From: a virus
DNA length: 40,734 nt
Strand: one strand, 5' to 3'
IMG/VR virus record: IMGVR_UViG_3300044766_000136
Location: 1-40,734 of that record
Both the position numbers and the translations under genes were made by a program. The notes below the pieces were generated by a model that was not told where the DNA came from, searched no databases, and saw only the letters and a list, made by a program, of their open reading frames with translations. Positions 19,124-31,763 of the stretch are shown here, one piece after another (position 1 is the stretch's first letter; each line of letters opens with the position of its first letter).

Positions 19124-19891
19124 TTACCCACGTGGAAAATCCTTTCGCTCAACAGGATATTTGGCGTTTGGCTTGATAAATATCGGAACACCCGCCCCGT
19201 CACATTGTTGAACCAGACTGTCAACCCATTCCTTTTTCGGTGGTTGAATTTTTCCTCCAGGTAAGGAAAGGCCGCCGCAGATTACCCAATCGATTCCTGG
19301 CACTTTCGGTTCTGCATCAAATCCTTTAAGCAGGTTGTGCTGAAAACCTTCCTCTTCTGAATGCGTAAACTCCACCGGCCCCAACATGGGCTCCACGCTG
19401 ACAAACCTCTTTGCCGCTGGTATCTGCAAGAGAATCGGTATCCTTTCGTCTGCGGTTTTCTGGTCCTCGACGGAGACGCCGAGCCAGAGATTTATGAATG
19501 GCAGGAGATGCCAACTTTTCGCCCACTTGTCCATTCTATCAGGACGCTTTGTAAGTATTGAAAATGTGTGTTCCGGGCATCGAGTCATAACATCCCATAT
19601 TTCGGCGATGAACTTATCCGAGACATCTTTATGAAAGAGGTCCCCCATAAACTGGACGCCGATCCGGGCGGGCTTTCGGAGATGGAGAGGGGCTTCGAGT
19701 TCATACGGGCTGAGAATCGGTGTACCTCCCGCATAGGCTTCCCTGGGAGTCTCGTCGATCATCGGATTCCCCGCCAGCCTCTTCGCCATGGCCAGATGCC
19801 AACATGAACGGCAACCCTCTGAAACGGGGGTGCATCTCATGGCAAGTGGATTCCAGGTGTGGGTCAAGTATTCGATTTTGGTTCGTTGCAT
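19124..19891 (-). CDS. DUF5131 (phage Gp37/Gp68-like) protein, copy 1
   Basis: 255 residues, ATG with GGAGGGA upstream. Family features: TKIEYLTHTWNPLAMRCTPV, the Cys cluster C-x6-C-x2-C (CTPVSEGCRSC, then WH), LRKPARIGVQFMGDLFHKDV, TFSILTKRPDRM, LWLGVSVEDQKTADERIP, LLQIPAAKRFVSVEPMLG and VICGGLSLPGGKI. The three Cys and TIM-barrel-like pattern resemble radical SAM enzymes with altered spacing. The biochemical role is unknown. A second copy is at 23388-24170. It sits between a zinc-finger gene and the HNH endonuclease. Confidence 0.88.
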   Translation of the reverse strand: MQRTKIEYLTHTWNPLAMRCTPVSEGCRSCWHLAMAKRLAGNPMIDETPREAYAGGTPILSPYELEAPLHLRKPARIGVQFMGDLFHKDVSDKFIAEIWDVMTRCPEHTFSILTKRPDRMDKWAKSWHLLPFINLWLGVSVEDQKTADERIPILLQIPAAKRFVSVEPMLGPVEFTHSEEEGFQHNLLKGFDAEPKVPGIDWVICGGLSLPGGKIQPPKKEWVDSLVQQCDGAGVPIFIKPNAKYPVERKDFPRG

Positions 19892-19901
19892 GGTCCCTCC
19901 A

Positions 19902-20525
19902 TTAAGCCGCTTTCCTCTCCCGAGACGTTTCCCACCAGCGTCTTAGATTCTCTGCCGCATGCTGGTATGGGATTTTCTGTTTTCCAGGGCGTATATAATT
20001 CCCATCCGCATAAACCATCATCCGGATTTCAACCAAATTAAGTCTAACCCCGAGGCGGCGGAGTCGTGAGCGGATTCGTTCGCATTCGTTAATCCCTTTC
20101 CGTGAGAGGCCCTGAATCGAGGGGTAGCACGGCCCATACTCAGAGACCAGACTTCTCGCTTCGCTCAGGGTGACATGCATCCCGAGCCGGCGACGAAGCC
20201 GCCCCTGGATCAGTATCGCATGGTGATTATTTATAAAATGAGTTCTGGCATGGGCATTTACCTTGGTCTTATCTGCCGAGGCCTTGCGCCAATAACTTTC
20301 GTTGAGTTTCGGATTTTCCCTTCGCCACCGCTGCAGATATCGCGTCTTCCATTCTCGGCGATGTCCGCGCTCTCGACGATTGTGGCAGGCCTTGCAGCGG
20401 CGTCTTATTAAATAGGCACCTTCCTTTCGCAGGTGGACCACCACTATCTCACCGATGGGCTTTTCACGGTTGCATCGGTTGCACACATAAGAGGCTGGAA
20501 TCTCACTGATGGATTTGACTATCAT
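19902..20525 (-). CDS. Zinc-finger, basic DNA-binding protein
   Basis: 207 residues; the ATG overlaps the stop of the ParB-like gene (ATGA). Near residues 15-55 two Cys pairs (CNRCNREKPIG and RRCKACHNRR) form a zinc-ribbon of the type also found at the start of the terminase and in the gene at 30357. The rest is strongly basic and helical (WKTRYLQRWRRENPKLNESY; GRLRRRLGMHVTLSEARSLV). The motif is reminiscent of HNH-like zinc folds but no catalytic H-N-H is apparent. A nucleic-acid-binding role is inferred. Confidence 0.65.
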   Translation of the reverse strand: MIVKSISEIPASYVCNRCNREKPIGEIVVVHLRKEGAYLIRRRCKACHNRRERGHRREWKTRYLQRWRRENPKLNESYWRKASADKTKVNAHARTHFINNHHAILIQGRLRRRLGMHVTLSEARSLVSEYGPCYPSIQGLSRKGINECERIRSRLRRLGVRLNLVEIRMMVYADGNYIRPGKQKIPYQHAAENLRRWWETSRERKAA

Positions 20526-22918
20526 TTGCCCTTTGCAGTCGTCTGCACTTCCTTTTTCGGTCCCGGACATTGTTCCCAGGTGGCAAACTTCTTATCGCGC
20601 CGGATGAACTCACTGATTCCAAACCTTTTCGCAGTGGCACCACAGGTTTTACATTTATAAATATCGTGCATGGGGACATTCCTGGTCGATGCCACTGTCA
20701 CAAGATTTTGTTTTTCCCATTGGTGTTCTTTTGATTTATTTTGGCAAGCGGTGCAGAGGGTCTTTTCTTTATCTGCCCATGCACAAGGGGTTAAAAATGT
20801 CGGATCGATACAGGGCGTCTTTTCGGTACATCCACATACTCGGCAGACTCCGGCCTTGGGTTTCTTTTGGACCTTTTCGGCAAAAAAGATGACCTTTGGG
20901 CCTTCGAGGACGTAGCTTTTTCCCTTTAAGAGCACCCGTTGACCATGATGATTGCCTCGTTCCTTTTCATTCTGATCCCATTTTGCTATAAGTTCATCAT
21001 AGCTATAGGTCTTTCCCTCAAACAGATTTGCCGACACGACTTTCCAGGCTTCTTCCTGGATGAACCCCTCGGTTCCGGAAGACGCTCCGCCAAGACTCAC
21101 GTAGAAATCGCCTTGCCATTCAACCGGCTCCCGGATTTTATTCCCACCATTTGTAAGAAGATCACCGGAGTAGGTTTTCTCTACCATTGCCAAAAAGACC
21201 TGATCTGCGGGGACACGCATCTCCTTACCTTTTCCCCCTACCGGTTTCGCCGGTGCATGGAGCTTGCAGATATCCTTCATGGGAATCGTCTTTACGTCCG
21301 GGGGATCCTTACGTTTAGGTTTCTGCTTCAGTGAAGGAGATTTCGTTACCGGGGCTTTTTGCTTTTTACTCTTCTTCTCGGCTTCCTTCGCCTTTGCTTC
21401 GGCCTTGACCTGCGCCTCAATCTTCTTGTGATCCACGCCGTATCGGGCGGCCGTCTCGAGTATAGGATCCCCTCTCTTTCCCATTAGTCGCCGAGGATTT
21501 TCACGATGCCGGATCAGACCCATTTCCATAAGGAGGCGGTTAAGATTTGGCTTGTTGAGCGTTGCAATATACTTTTTCATCGGGCCTTCCTTGTCGAACC
21601 CATATTGAATCTTGACCGGTTCAATCTCATGGCGGGAGAGAATTTTCTTTCTATGCTCATCCCAAAGTTCATCAAAGAGCTGTTCAGCAAGGAAAATAAG
21701 GTCGGCCTGGGAGAGGTCTCCTGTATCTGGGAGAATGGCATCGATGATCCGGAGACGGACTGTCTCTTCTGTCTTTCTCTTCTCCTCGGCCGCTTTTTGC
21801 TGGGCCTTATATTTTTGACCTTCCGGTGAAGAAGAATATGAATCCGACCGACCATGATGTACCTTACATGCTGGATCCGTACAGACAGTAAGTATCCGAC
21901 CCTCATGACTTCCCTCGGTGATGATGCCCTCCCTCGCAGAGGGGCAGCTTCCCTTCTTCTTGTCCGTGATCACATGATACAGATTCGCCGGAACCGGCAC
22001 CTCCGGATCTTCCGGGGCCTTTTTCATACGATAGTTGGAACTACCAGAGAGGTGGAGTGGGGGTACGTCGCTGTCTTCAGACTGCTTCGAAAGCCATCGG
22101 GCACTGAAAGCTGCAACCTTTTTGTTAAAGCAAGAAGGATCCGTACAGGTATCCTTCTTCTTTATTTCTGGAAAGAGGGCCGGAACAAAGCCGGTGCGCT
22201 TCTGGCAGGTTGTGCAAGGCCCCGCCTCCGGCACCAAGTCCGGATCGGTCTTCTTGAAAGAGGCTGAATTGAGATCCAGATGAATCTGCCTCTCAATATG
22301 GTTGGCAAGATCCCGGACGCTCACTACGGTCCGGTCGTTCCCCCATCCCTCGTACAAACCTGACTCTTTTTTAAGAAGTTCCTTCTGTTGATCGGGTTGC
22401 AGCCTGGCGATCAGAATCGCATGGCCGGCGGTAATCTTCTCATTGGCGAGCTGCTCCTGGGCCTCGGGTATGAGCTCGAGAAGTTTGATCCGTTGATAAA
22501 TCCAGGATTCCGACTTACAGACCTTATCGGAGATAGCTGCAACATCGTAATGCATCTGTTCCATTAAGGTCCGGTATCCCTGGGCTTGTTCCAGAGGTTC
22601 GAGGTCTTCATGCTTATCATTCTCAATGATGAGGACCTCCAGAAAATCGGAATCACTCATCTCCCGGATGAAGACGGGGACCTCCGTCAACTCGGCCTTA
22701 ATTCCCGCTCGATATCGCCGATGGCCGGCAGCGATTTCAAACTGGTCAAGGGGCGCGATTCTCGATTCTTTGCATGGCCGGACGAGAAGCGGCACCAAGA
22801 TCCCCTTGGCTCTGATGCTCTCGACGAGCTCGGCCATCTTCTTTTCGTTGAACGTCTTCCGTGGATTGAGCGGCGACTCAAAAACTTTACCGATCGGTAG
22901 AACTTGATACTGTTCCAT
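20522..22918 (-). CDS. Giant ParB-domain protein with several Cys clusters
   Basis: 798 residues, ATG with GGGAGG upstream. Residues 1-110 are a ParB/Spo0J N-terminal domain (SPLNPRKTFNEKKMAELVES; GHRRYRAG near 66-73). Next comes the ParB helix-turn-helix part (VAAISDKVCKSESWIYQRIK). Unlike partition proteins (about 300 residues) it continues for another 550 residues with Cys pairs near 235-265 (CTTCQ, CTDPSCFNKK), near 345 (CTDPACKVHH), a Lys-rich linker (KAKEAEKKSKKQKAP) and C-terminal zinc motifs (CRVCGCTEKTPC, CTACQ, CKTCG). No ParA partner is present. It could regulate transcription, or use the ParB CTPase fold for another reaction. Confidence 0.82.
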   Translation of the reverse strand: MEQYQVLPIGKVFESPLNPRKTFNEKKMAELVESIRAKGILVPLLVRPCKESRIAPLDQFEIAAGHRRYRAGIKAELTEVPVFIREMSDSDFLEVLIIENDKHEDLEPLEQAQGYRTLMEQMHYDVAAISDKVCKSESWIYQRIKLLELIPEAQEQLANEKITAGHAILIARLQPDQQKELLKKESGLYEGWGNDRTVVSVRDLANHIERQIHLDLNSASFKKTDPDLVPEAGPCTTCQKRTGFVPALFPEIKKKDTCTDPSCFNKKVAAFSARWLSKQSEDSDVPPLHLSGSSNYRMKKAPEDPEVPVPANLYHVITDKKKGSCPSAREGIITEGSHEGRILTVCTDPACKVHHGRSDSYSSSPEGQKYKAQQKAAEEKRKTEETVRLRIIDAILPDTGDLSQADLIFLAEQLFDELWDEHRKKILSRHEIEPVKIQYGFDKEGPMKKYIATLNKPNLNRLLMEMGLIRHRENPRRLMGKRGDPILETAARYGVDHKKIEAQVKAEAKAKEAEKKSKKQKAPVTKSPSLKQKPKRKDPPDVKTIPMKDICKLHAPAKPVGGKGKEMRVPADQVFLAMVEKTYSGDLLTNGGNKIREPVEWQGDFYVSLGGASSGTEGFIQEEAWKVVSANLFEGKTYSYDELIAKWDQNEKERGNHHGQRVLLKGKSYVLEGPKVIFFAEKVQKKPKAGVCRVCGCTEKTPCIDPTFLTPCAWADKEKTLCTACQNKSKEHQWEKQNLVTVASTRNVPMHDIYKCKTCGATAKRFGISEFIRRDKKFATWEQCPGPKKEVQTTAKGK

Positions 22919-23170: not shown

Positions 23171-23395
23171 TCAGCCTCCGTCTGTACGCCTATCCGATCT
23201 GATTTTCTGAATGTAATAATGAATCATCTCACGGTAACGCTTATGGTTTGAAACGAACAGATCGGGTCTCTTCCCGCTTCTAAAGCGGGGTCGTTTCTTC
23301 CCGATGTGTGCCAATCTCATCTTTTCCAAAACTTCTGGAGGATGCTTCTTTCCAAACATCGGATTGCTTTTACCTGCGTTTTTTGATTTACCCAT
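23171..23395 (-). pseudogene. Truncated NUMOD3/HNH homing endonuclease remnant
   Basis: 74 residues. It begins MGKSKNAGKSNPMFGKKHPP and carries the NUMOD3 segment in a form identical at DNA level to the intact copy at 18633-19115 over 73 bp. Then it diverges into unrelated basic sequence (RSGKRPDLFVSNHKRYREMI) and stops without the HNH catalytic region. It overlaps the DUF5131 stop by eight bases. It may be a relic, or a short DNA-binding protein of its own. Confidence 0.72.
23289..23361. repeat. 73-bp perfect direct repeat, copy 2 (NUMOD3 coding)
   Basis: Identical to 19024-19096. The repeat encodes the NUMOD3 motif of the truncated homing endonuclease. It could support recombination that deletes the 4.3 kb between the copies, including the ParB-like gene. 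Confidence 0.9.
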
Positions 23396-24170
23396 GTGGG
23401 AATTCCTTTCGTTCGATAGGATATTTGGCGTTTGGCTTAATGAATATTGGGATACCCGTTGCATCGCATTGTTCAATCAGACTATCAACCCATTCTTTTT
23501 TTGGAGCTTGAATTTTGCCTCCTGGAAGGGATAGGCCGCCACAGATCACCCATGCCAGACATCTTTTTCCGGGGGCGATAAGGTAGTCCTTGCCCATATC
23601 AGTCAACTTCCAATCTTGTTGTAGAATCACCGCCCCCAACATCGGCTCCACGCTGACAAATCTCTTCGCCGCCGGTATCTGTAAAAGAATGGGTATTCTC
23701 TCGTCTGCTGTTATCTGATTCTCGACGGAGACGCCGAGCCAAACATTATGGAGTGGCCAAGTTCTTCCTTCGGGTAGCTCAGCACCATCCCAAAATGTTC
23801 CGATTTCCAGGGCCTTTGATGGACGTTTAGTGAGAATAAAAAACGTATGGTCCTGACACGCGGCCATGACATCAAGAATCTCAGTCTGAAACTCAAATGG
23901 GACATTCTCATGAAAGAGATCCCCCATGAACTGCAAACCTATTATGGCAGGTTTTCGGAGATGGAGCGGGGCTTCCAGTTCCTCCATGTTTAAAACGGGA
24001 GGCCCACCGCCATAGGCGACCCTTGCCATTTCTTTAATCGTAGCATTCTTCGCCAGCCTCTTCGCCATGGCCAGGTGCCAACAGTTCCTACAACCATCAG
24101 AGATGGGAGTGCATCTCATGGCCAGTGGGTTCCATGTGTAATTTAGATATTCGATTTTTGTTTTATTCAT
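23388..24170 (-). CDS. DUF5131 (phage Gp37/Gp68-like) protein, copy 2
   Basis: 260 residues, clearly paralogous to 19124-19891 (TKIEYLNYTWNPLAMRCTPI; C-x6-C-x2-C in CTPISDGCRNC; IGLQFMGDLFHENVP; LPGGKIQAPKKEWVDSLIEQ). Differences concentrate in the middle, where this copy has a longer insert (FWDGAELPEGRTWPLHNVWL). The ATG overlaps the previous stop by four bases. Both copies are followed by a NUMOD3 reading frame. Keeping two diverged intact copies suggests distinct substrates or recent exchange with another phage. Confidence 0.88.
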   Translation of the reverse strand: MNKTKIEYLNYTWNPLAMRCTPISDGCRNCWHLAMAKRLAKNATIKEMARVAYGGGPPVLNMEELEAPLHLRKPAIIGLQFMGDLFHENVPFEFQTEILDVMAACQDHTFFILTKRPSKALEIGTFWDGAELPEGRTWPLHNVWLGVSVENQITADERIPILLQIPAAKRFVSVEPMLGAVILQQDWKLTDMGKDYLIAPGKRCLAWVICGGLSLPGGKIQAPKKEWVDSLIEQCDATGIPIFIKPNAKYPIERKEFPHG

Positions 24171-26056: not shown

Positions 26057-26263
26057 TCACCAGCCTTTCCGCATCCAAAGACAAAGGAGCGGCCAAAGGA
26101 CGAGAGCAAATGCGAAAATAAGCCCCCAGCCGAGTTTATGCCAGATAAGACCGACCAGTATAAATGCTGCGATAAGGCCACCTTCGAATAAGGCGGCGGA
26201 GATGACGACGACTAAGATGAGAAACATTAGGCCCGAAAAATCCGAATGCCCATGGTTATTCAT
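26057..26263 (-). CDS. 68-residue polytopic membrane protein
   Basis: ATG with AGAGGAG upstream. Two or three hydrophobic segments: GLMFLILVVVISAALFEGGL, IAAFILVGLIWHKLGWG and LIFAFALVLWPLLCLWM. A His-containing polar start (MNNHGHSDFSG) and a basic end (RKGW) complete it. The gene follows the CCNNG pentamer array. No family is recognised; size and shape would suit a holin or a small membrane effector. Confidence 0.66.
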   Translation of the reverse strand: MNNHGHSDFSGLMFLILVVVISAALFEGGLIAAFILVGLIWHKLGWGLIFAFALVLWPLLCLWMRKGW

Positions 26264-26291
26264 CGTTTCTCCTCTTTTTTAATGTTATTTG

Positions 26292-26369
26292 CCTTGCCTG
26301 CCTTGCCATGCCTCGCCTTGCCGCGCCCTGCCAGGCCTAGCCACGCCTGGCCTTGCCAAGCCTGCCTTG
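26292..26369. repeat. Pentamer array CCNNG with mirror-arranged ends
   Basis: From 26301 to 26360 there are 12 uninterrupted 5-bp units of the form CCNNG: the NN pairs are TT, AT, TC, TT, GC, CT, AG, TA, AC, TG, TT, AA. On each side the array ends in one 4-bp unit CCTG and then CCTTG, arranged as mirror images (CCTTG-CCTG ... CCTG-CCTTG). It fills most of the gap between a lipoprotein gene and a membrane protein gene, both on the minus strand. Two units equal one helical turn. Function is unknown. Confidence 0.85.
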
Positions 26370-26372
26370 CTC

Positions 26373-26747
26373 TCAATGAATGCAAAACCGTCCAAACAGT
26401 ATTGCCCCGATAGTATCCCCCTGAATCAGAAACTCATTGTTCAGGTTGAATTGGCTCATCGAGCGAATCCTTCCGTACTGATCGAAGGTGACGCGATCCA
26501 GCACAGTGATCTTCCACCCCTGGCAATCAAGTCGGATATTCTCCCTCTCCCGTCTCTCATCGGCTTTCTCCGTTTTGGCATAGTAGTACTCAACTCGTGC
26601 CTTGACTTCGGTAGGGGATGATTGCTGGTATTCCTTCACCGATACTTGCACTTCGTCATTTTTGAATATGCGATTGGAGGCACAGCCGGTCAGCAGGCAG
26701 ATGGCGATGATCGTAAGATAGCCTAAATAGTCGATGGATGTTTTCAT
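26373..26747 (-). CDS. Lipoprotein of the early operon
   Basis: 124 residues; the start is the ATG with AAAGGAGAG upstream. The signal peptide ends in the lipobox LLTGC (SIDYLGYLTIIAICLLTGCA), so the mature protein is anchored through Cys. The mature part is polar (EVQVSVKEYQQSSPTEVKAR; VEYYYAKTEKADERRERENI) with a beta-rich C-terminus. It follows the secreted Gln-rich protein gene at a distance of 52 bases and has the same type of translation signal. No family is recognised; an outer-membrane partner of the secreted protein is plausible. Confidence 0.72.
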   Translation of the reverse strand: MKTSIDYLGYLTIIAICLLTGCASNRIFKNDEVQVSVKEYQQSSPTEVKARVEYYYAKTEKADERRERENIRLDCQGWKITVLDRVTFDQYGRIRSMSQFNLNNEFLIQGDTIGAILFGRFCIH

Positions 26748-26799
26748 CTTCTCTCCTTTAGAATGATCGGGGAGCCCCACTTGGAGTCCCCCGTTCACC

Positions 26800-30983: not shown

Positions 30984-31763
30984 ATGAAAGCAAAAGATGA
31001 TAGTCTCCGGTGGATTCCACTGTGGGTTGACAAGTGGATTTTTGGGTCAACTCGCATCGAATTACAGCACGATGAACGGGCAATTTGGGTAGATCTTATG
31101 GCACTGGCGTCTAAGGATAATGGCTATGTGAGAGCAAATCCCGTCACCCCCTACTCAATTTTGCAATTATCGGGTTTACTGTGCGCCACCGAAAAGCTTT
31201 TGGTGAGATCCATACGGAGATGTATCGAAACGGGGAAGATTTTAGATCAATCCGGAATCTATTATCTTGTAAATTGGGATCAATTCAAGCTTAGTGAGAG
31301 GCAATGCCGGAGAATTGAAAAACACGCGCGCGATATTGCTATGGCCACCCAACCGGACATCATGGCCACCCAACCGGACACTATGACCGAAAGTGTGGCC
31401 TTAAAGAAGAGTAGAGTAGAGGAGAGTAGAGTAAAGAATAAAGAACTATATGGGTCTCTTTTTCTTTCTTTCTGGAACCAATATCCCAAAAAGTTCGGAA
31501 AACCGAATGCCTTTAGGGAATGGAATAAAATCAAGCCCGATATTGAATTAGTCGTCCCCGCCTTAAAAGCTCAGATCGAATTCAAGGAAAGACTTCTGGC
31601 TGAAAATAAATTCTGCCCCGAATGGCCGGATCCCGAGAGATGGATAAAGAACCGGAGATGGGAGGATGAGCTCCAGGATGGTCCTCCGTCAGATGAACGG
31701 GACCGAATGCTCCATGAGATGAAAAAGGAGAGGGAGAAAGATGAACATCCTGAATCCGCCTAA
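30984..31763 (+). CDS. Replication initiator, phage replisome organizer type
   Basis: 259 residues. The N-terminal domain (RWIPLWVDKWIFGSTRIELQ; HDERAIWVDLMALASKDNGY; VRANPVTPYSILQLSGLLCA) is the winged-helix 'phage replisome organizer' domain that binds the origin. A variable middle with two 7-residue repeats (MATQPDI, MATQPDT) follows, and then a C-terminal part (FLSFWNQYPKKFGKPNAFRE; FCPEWPDPERWIKNRRWEDE) usually needed to recruit the host helicase or loader. It starts right after the zinc-ribbon gene and overlaps the next gene by 23 bases. Confidence 0.85.
   Translation: MKAKDDSLRWIPLWVDKWIFGSTRIELQHDERAIWVDLMALASKDNGYVRANPVTPYSILQLSGLLCATEKLLVRSIRRCIETGKILDQSGIYYLVNWDQFKLSERQCRRIEKHARDIAMATQPDIMATQPDTMTESVALKKSRVEESRVKNKELYGSLFLSFWNQYPKKFGKPNAFREWNKIKPDIELVVPALKAQIEFKERLLAENKFCPEWPDPERWIKNRRWEDELQDGPPSDERDRMLHEMKKEREKDEHPESA
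31341..31440 (+). other. Candidate replication origin inside the initiator gene
   Basis: Two 21-bp direct repeats (31341-31361 and 31362-31382) share ATGGCCACCCAACCGGACA. They are followed by a purine-rich stretch with GAGTAGA repeats (31408-31436), then an AT-richer region. Repeats within the variable middle of the initiator gene followed by an easily melted stretch is the lambda-ori arrangement. Two iterons are fewer than in lambda, so this is tentative. Confidence 0.5.

Follow-up and report, generated by a model that had tools for sequence, protein, structure and literature searches.

A vrRNA-like guide array in an apparently complete phage genome with no detectable vipr gene

Between two short genes of the window, by which we mean the whole 40,734-nucleotide stretch of viral DNA analyzed here, lies a run of pentamers in which three bases are fixed and two vary almost freely. 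The question raised by this locus is what the pattern serves: a DNA site contacted by a protein, a joint at which genes are exchanged, or a transcribed RNA element.

A candidate framework is VIPR (Viral Interference Programmable Repeat), reported in 2026 as a form of RNA-guided DNA silencing and proposed to be older than CRISPR, with the SUSP1 and P. fulva systems as examples (preprint PMC13142463). As described in its main text, the guides (vrRNAs) are transcribed small RNAs with a conserved structured 3' tail, made of 9–16 tandem GGY/NN (YNNGG) repeats with hypervariable NN and bound by a RAMP protein, Vipr. The NN pairs read two of every three bases in double-stranded DNA (NNxNNx...), the base passed over usually being the codon wobble position, and the Vipr–vrRNA complex acts as a transcriptional repressor, mostly against competing phages and satellites. 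VIPR loci carry vipr together with accessory genes (vap1–6) and fall into seven diverse types (PMC13142463).

The array and its surroundings

The sequence-only reading had described twelve in-phase CCNNG units on the plus strand, the first at 26301. This count was confirmed, Markov simulations (order 1–5, 40.7 kb) giving a maximum of 3–4 in-phase units vs 12 in the window array, and a scan of the whole 40.7 kb identified 26290–26366 as the only GGCNN array of the window. The ends had been taken for mirror images of each other; both are in fact one and the same four-base step, GGCA-GGC, which bounds runs in many other arrays. Read on the minus strand, the strand of both flanking genes, the array is GGCA (GGCTT GGCAA GGCCA GGCGT GGCTA GGCCT GGCAG GGCGC GGCAA GGCGA GGCAT GGCAA) GGCA GGCAA GGCA. 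The GGC triplets are intact in 16/16 cases, and the NN string of the twelve units (TT AA CA GT TA CT AG GC AA GA AT AA) comprises 10 different pairs. The array begins a few nt past the stop codon of a lipoprotein gene and stops just short of the following gene's ribosome-binding site. The features of the locus are:

26290–26366, minus strand: vrRNA-like guide array, GGCA-(GGCNN)x12-GGCA-GGCAA-GGCA, with the architecture seen beside vipr in other phages and in the published vrRNA definition (main text of PMC13142463)
26303–26362, minus strand: predicted guide, 12 GGCNN units between two four-base steps; target predicted by the 1-nt-skip rule, TTNAANCANGTNTANCTNAGNGCNAANGANATNAA
26360–26366, minus strand: 5' boundary step GGCA-GGC (GGCAGGC makes up 188/242 four-base steps of viral arrays)
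26296–26302, minus strand: 3' boundary step GGCA-GGC, then AAGGCA, from the reading of the array
26264–26289, minus strand: AU-rich 3' flank containing the GAGGAG ribosome-binding site of the following gene; a structured vrRNA tail is not clearly recognizable
26373–26750, minus strand: short lipoprotein gene (LTGC lipobox), upstream of the array and part of its operon; no family match
26057–26263, minus strand: gene for a 68-aa membrane protein, downstream of the array; no family match

Folding of the array with its flank gave z = −2.0 and no clear structured 3' tail, and a consensus scan for promoters and terminators around the array returned none. A blastn comparison of the array with cultured phages yielded chance matches alone, mostly in T5-like DNA polymerase genes, Rfam gave no match, relatives of the lipoprotein gene sought in IMG/VR were not found, and neither was literature on pentanucleotide repeats in phages. 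A CRISPR array was ruled out, the period being 5 with three fixed bases, not identical repeats with unique spacers; so was a microsatellite or slippage repeat, given the 10 different NN among 12 units and the mostly degenerate nature of viral arrays. Note that the window holds another repeat at 31341–31380, a 21-bp unit in two nearly complete perfect copies within a coding gene (7-aa duplication).

The array family and its partner gene

We scanned IMG/VR for 8 exact GGCNN units (at least 120 stretches) and bacterial and archaeal genomes for 9 units (at least 120 loci), both scans being samples. Among the matches listed, the arrays were degenerate at 113/120 viral loci, often with several per contig, vs 8/120 cellular loci, the other 112/120 being simple identical repeats (Fisher p about 1e-48); we therefore consider the degenerate GGCNN form mainly a viral feature. 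The cellular runs (L129–L248), mostly tandem repeats of identical units and many of them actinobacterial, are distinct from the degenerate viral arrays. The GC content of the array-bearing viral contigs ranges from about 0.39 to 0.76, and array orientation is uniform in 69/69 contigs with more than one array.

The first three loci inspected had a gene of unknown function, phrog_4652, beside the array. This family occurred in 40 of 50 array-bearing viral records vs none of 38 control viral records chosen by an unrelated gene, terminase (Fisher p = 6e-16), and the control records held no GGCNN array in 404 kb. Our own iterative phrog_4652 profile found matches in 85 of 115 array loci. A 65-member profile of the family matches one solved chain, PDB 36pp, "SUSP1 Vipr protein" (E = 3.5e-38), and the AlphaFold model of the protein (pLDDT 92.5) resembles the Csm3/Cas7-type RAMP subunits that occur in CRISPR complexes (lowest E 5e-6, probability 1.0). 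By profile match and predicted structure, the phrog_4652 family is Vipr, with a RAMP fold like that of CRISPR subunits. The sequence-only reading had proposed to look for such runs in other phages and for a conserved neighbor gene; arrays do recur, and they adjoin vipr. Array and vipr share a strand in 148/151 cases, L043 and L097 being the only two loci with the two on opposite strands.

The window array has the published vrRNA form: its 12 units lie within the range of 9–16, its 12 units carry many different NN pairs, and GGY is on the transcribed strand. Because the vipr-adjacent array family fits the published description of vrRNAs, the window array very probably belongs with the vrRNA-type guide arrays of VIPR and carries one guide. 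It shares with VIPR vrRNAs the tandem GGY/NN pentamers, 9–16 per guide, the hypervariable NN, the phage-borne location and GGC on the transcribed strand; unlike them, it sits in a genome without vipr, has no recognizable structured tail and carries GGCA-GGC steps at both ends. VIPR is in turn like the RAMP (Csm3/Cas7) complexes of Class 1 CRISPR in its fold and in having protein subunits that sit on the guide RNA at regular nucleotide intervals, and unlike them in its period (5 vs 6), its noncontiguous code and the lack of CRISPR repeats and cas genes.

Two suggestions of the sequence-only reading, selection on a protein-contact pattern with fixed edges and free centers, and an RNA element with CNNGG on the transcribed strand, gain support from published vrRNAs, which are RAMP-bound YNNGG repeats (main text of PMC13142463). 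Its appeal to two units per DNA turn, and its option of a recombination site for gene swapping, found no support. We also compared the NN spectrum of viral loci (3379 units) with the codon positions of the same contigs and obtained KL values of 0.094 (positions 1–2), 0.164 (2–3) and 0.246 (3–1). The spectrum is nearest to codon positions 1–2, which provides indirect support for the wobble-skip rule.

The boundary step and the orphan guide

Four-base steps in viral arrays, most of them of the GGCAGGC form listed above, separate runs of mostly 7–12 units. Mapped onto the Vipr tree, step presence is clustered (10 changes vs 20.6 in shuffles; 0/500 as low) and occurs mainly in one supported Vipr clade (21/28 members). 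It is also found in cultured phages, the Gordonia phages UmaThurman and ODay and the mycobacteriophage Brocalys, in arrays around vipr-like genes annotated as hypothetical proteins only. Like the window, these loci have GGCA-GGC steps bounding runs of GGYNN units; unlike it, they place vipr next to the arrays, string several guides together and use GGT more often. All three (L344, L345 and L348, respectively) are multi-guide VIPR loci near repressor, excisionase or tail genes, and in Brocalys the array overlaps the annotated vipr start, which was probably called too early. By its layout, the window array would be one guide unit in the GGCA-GGC style, and a Vipr of that clade is predicted to load it. 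As a guide boundary associated with one Vipr clade the step looks new, being absent from the main text of PMC13142463, its priority uncertain. It provides a sequence-based way to tell where guides begin and end within long arrays and to match orphan guides to Vipr clades, and the degenerate-GGCNN search recipe itself finds many unannotated VIPR loci, some of them in cultured Gordonia and Mycobacterium laboratory phages.

The window carries a direct terminal repeat of 127 bp, which makes it very likely that the assembly is circular and complete, with a length of about 40.6 kb. The window encodes a terminase, portal, protease, major capsid, head–tail adaptor, tail, tape measure and integrase, and very probably represents a complete temperate tailed phage; the relatives of its terminase and capsid are too distant and taxonomically mixed to indicate a host. 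Note that two related DUF5131-type genes (19124–19891 and 23388–24170) lie in one operon about 3.5 kb apart, with a large ParB-like gene (20522–22918) between them.

A complete VIPR system has vipr in the locus of its array; in the window none was detected, either there or elsewhere, at E ≤ 1 by the phrog_4652 search or at E ≤ 10 by the 65-member profile. When every ORF of at least 60 aa was compared by hhalign, the best probability was 5.6%, with held-out divergent Vipr clades scoring 94–99% as a positive control, and a search for the G-loop motif found none in a plausible ORF of the window. About 26 other array records, some of 26–105 kb, are also without detectable vipr. Most of them may be fragments; L111 (38,159 bp, with a 114-bp terminal repeat and a GGCNN array) appears to be another complete viral genome in which no Vipr is detectable. 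These records, L111 with its terminal repeats among them, indicate that orphan arrays recur. Carriage of an orphan guide by a complete phage is apparently new; guide-only elements are maybe not wholly so, as some satellites are reported to encode their own vrRNAs, the presence of vipr there not being stated in the main text (PMC13142463). Finding the guide intact in a complete phage that lacks Vipr suggests that guides travel and function independently of the protein, and makes their use in trans in phage–phage conflict testable.

Proposed mechanism, targets and alternative readings

Three things are directly established: the array itself, its relationship to the arrays that accompany vipr, and the failure to detect a vipr in the complete genome. 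Taken as a whole, the reading that we favor, and consider probable, is that of a single vrRNA in a complete vipr-less phage, used in trans. Against it stand the target searches below, which gave no target, and the missing recognizable 3' tail. As part of its minus-strand operon, the array would be transcribed and processed as one vrRNA, whose GGC triplets would serve as fixed contacts for Vipr, presumably with a RAMP-fold subunit every 5 nt. Its twelve NN pairs would read double-stranded target DNA in the pattern NNxNNx..., and the ribonucleoprotein would silence a competing phage or mobile element at the level of transcription. Because this phage has no vipr gene, Vipr would most likely be supplied in trans by a resident prophage, a co-infecting phage or the host, and would probably come from the clade whose arrays carry GGCA-GGC steps. 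More tentatively, with the odds somewhat against it, guide-only phages could represent a recurring strategy in which the single orphan vrRNA of a complete temperate phage borrows the Vipr of a resident or rival phage to silence a competitor, the GGCA-GGC step signaling the loading clade.

The predicted target has 24 fixed bases. No exact match to all 12 pairs was found in IMG/VR, and four 9-pair windows gave one match in total, about chance by a rough estimate. This match, L321, was rejected as a target: its first 9 of 12 pairs fit and two of the remaining three fail, which is at chance level, and the match is not wobble-phased. Allowing up to 3 mismatches, 395 genomes of one phylum contained 1 match vs 2 for the backward control, and the best self-target in the window reached 17/24, equal to the reversed control. 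Cross-searching 186 guides among the array loci with skips of 0–3 nt revealed no 1-nt-skip excess, that database being too small. The right target may lie outside the sequences searched.

Two alternatives accept the vrRNA and dispute its use in trans. A recently deleted VIPR locus could have left one functionless guide behind, which would account for a complete genome without vipr. The intact GGC triplets argue against an old, decaying relic; a recent one is made unlikely by the same 16/16 count, the neat bounding of the 12 units by a step on each side and the recurrence of vipr-less arrays in about 26 other records, L111 included. Somewhat less likely again is a system complete in cis, with a phage-encoded Vipr too divergent to detect. 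The diversity of the seven types (main text of PMC13142463) and the lack of a match in several other array records, some as long as 26–105 kb, would allow it; the hhalign result, below 6% for every window ORF of at least 60 aa against 94–99% for held-out divergent clades, the lack of a G-loop motif in a plausible ORF and the identity of the array's neighbors, one encoding a lipoprotein and the other a small membrane protein, all weigh against it.

The two readings without a guide are both very improbable. TRAP binds (G/U)AG triplets with 2-nt spacers, about 11 units per site, in a regulatory role. A cis-acting RNA site for such a ring protein, regulating translation of the next gene, was our initial idea, since the triplet-plus-spacer geometry and unit number are alike and the window array abuts a ribosome-binding site; it was dropped when the neighboring gene family was identified as a RAMP, not TRAP. 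The TRAP-binding repeats differ in their triplet, their unrelated protein and their regulatory rather than guide role, and arrays at other loci are present in several copies, on either side of vipr, with no tie to a ribosome-binding site. The position of the array between two genes of unrelated, unassigned families would suit a DNA-level element, either a protein-binding array or a recombination joint for gene exchange, whereas the strand agreement with vipr (148/151) and the single orientation per contig (69/69) fit an RNA, as does an NN spectrum that follows codon positions 1–2.

The viral arrays show two further biases in composition. The first N after GGC is seldom C (327/2552), from which we conclude that GGCC is avoided, and the TA pair is under-represented (83 observed vs 131 expected). 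Target codons, restriction avoidance or Vipr contacts may cause these deficits.
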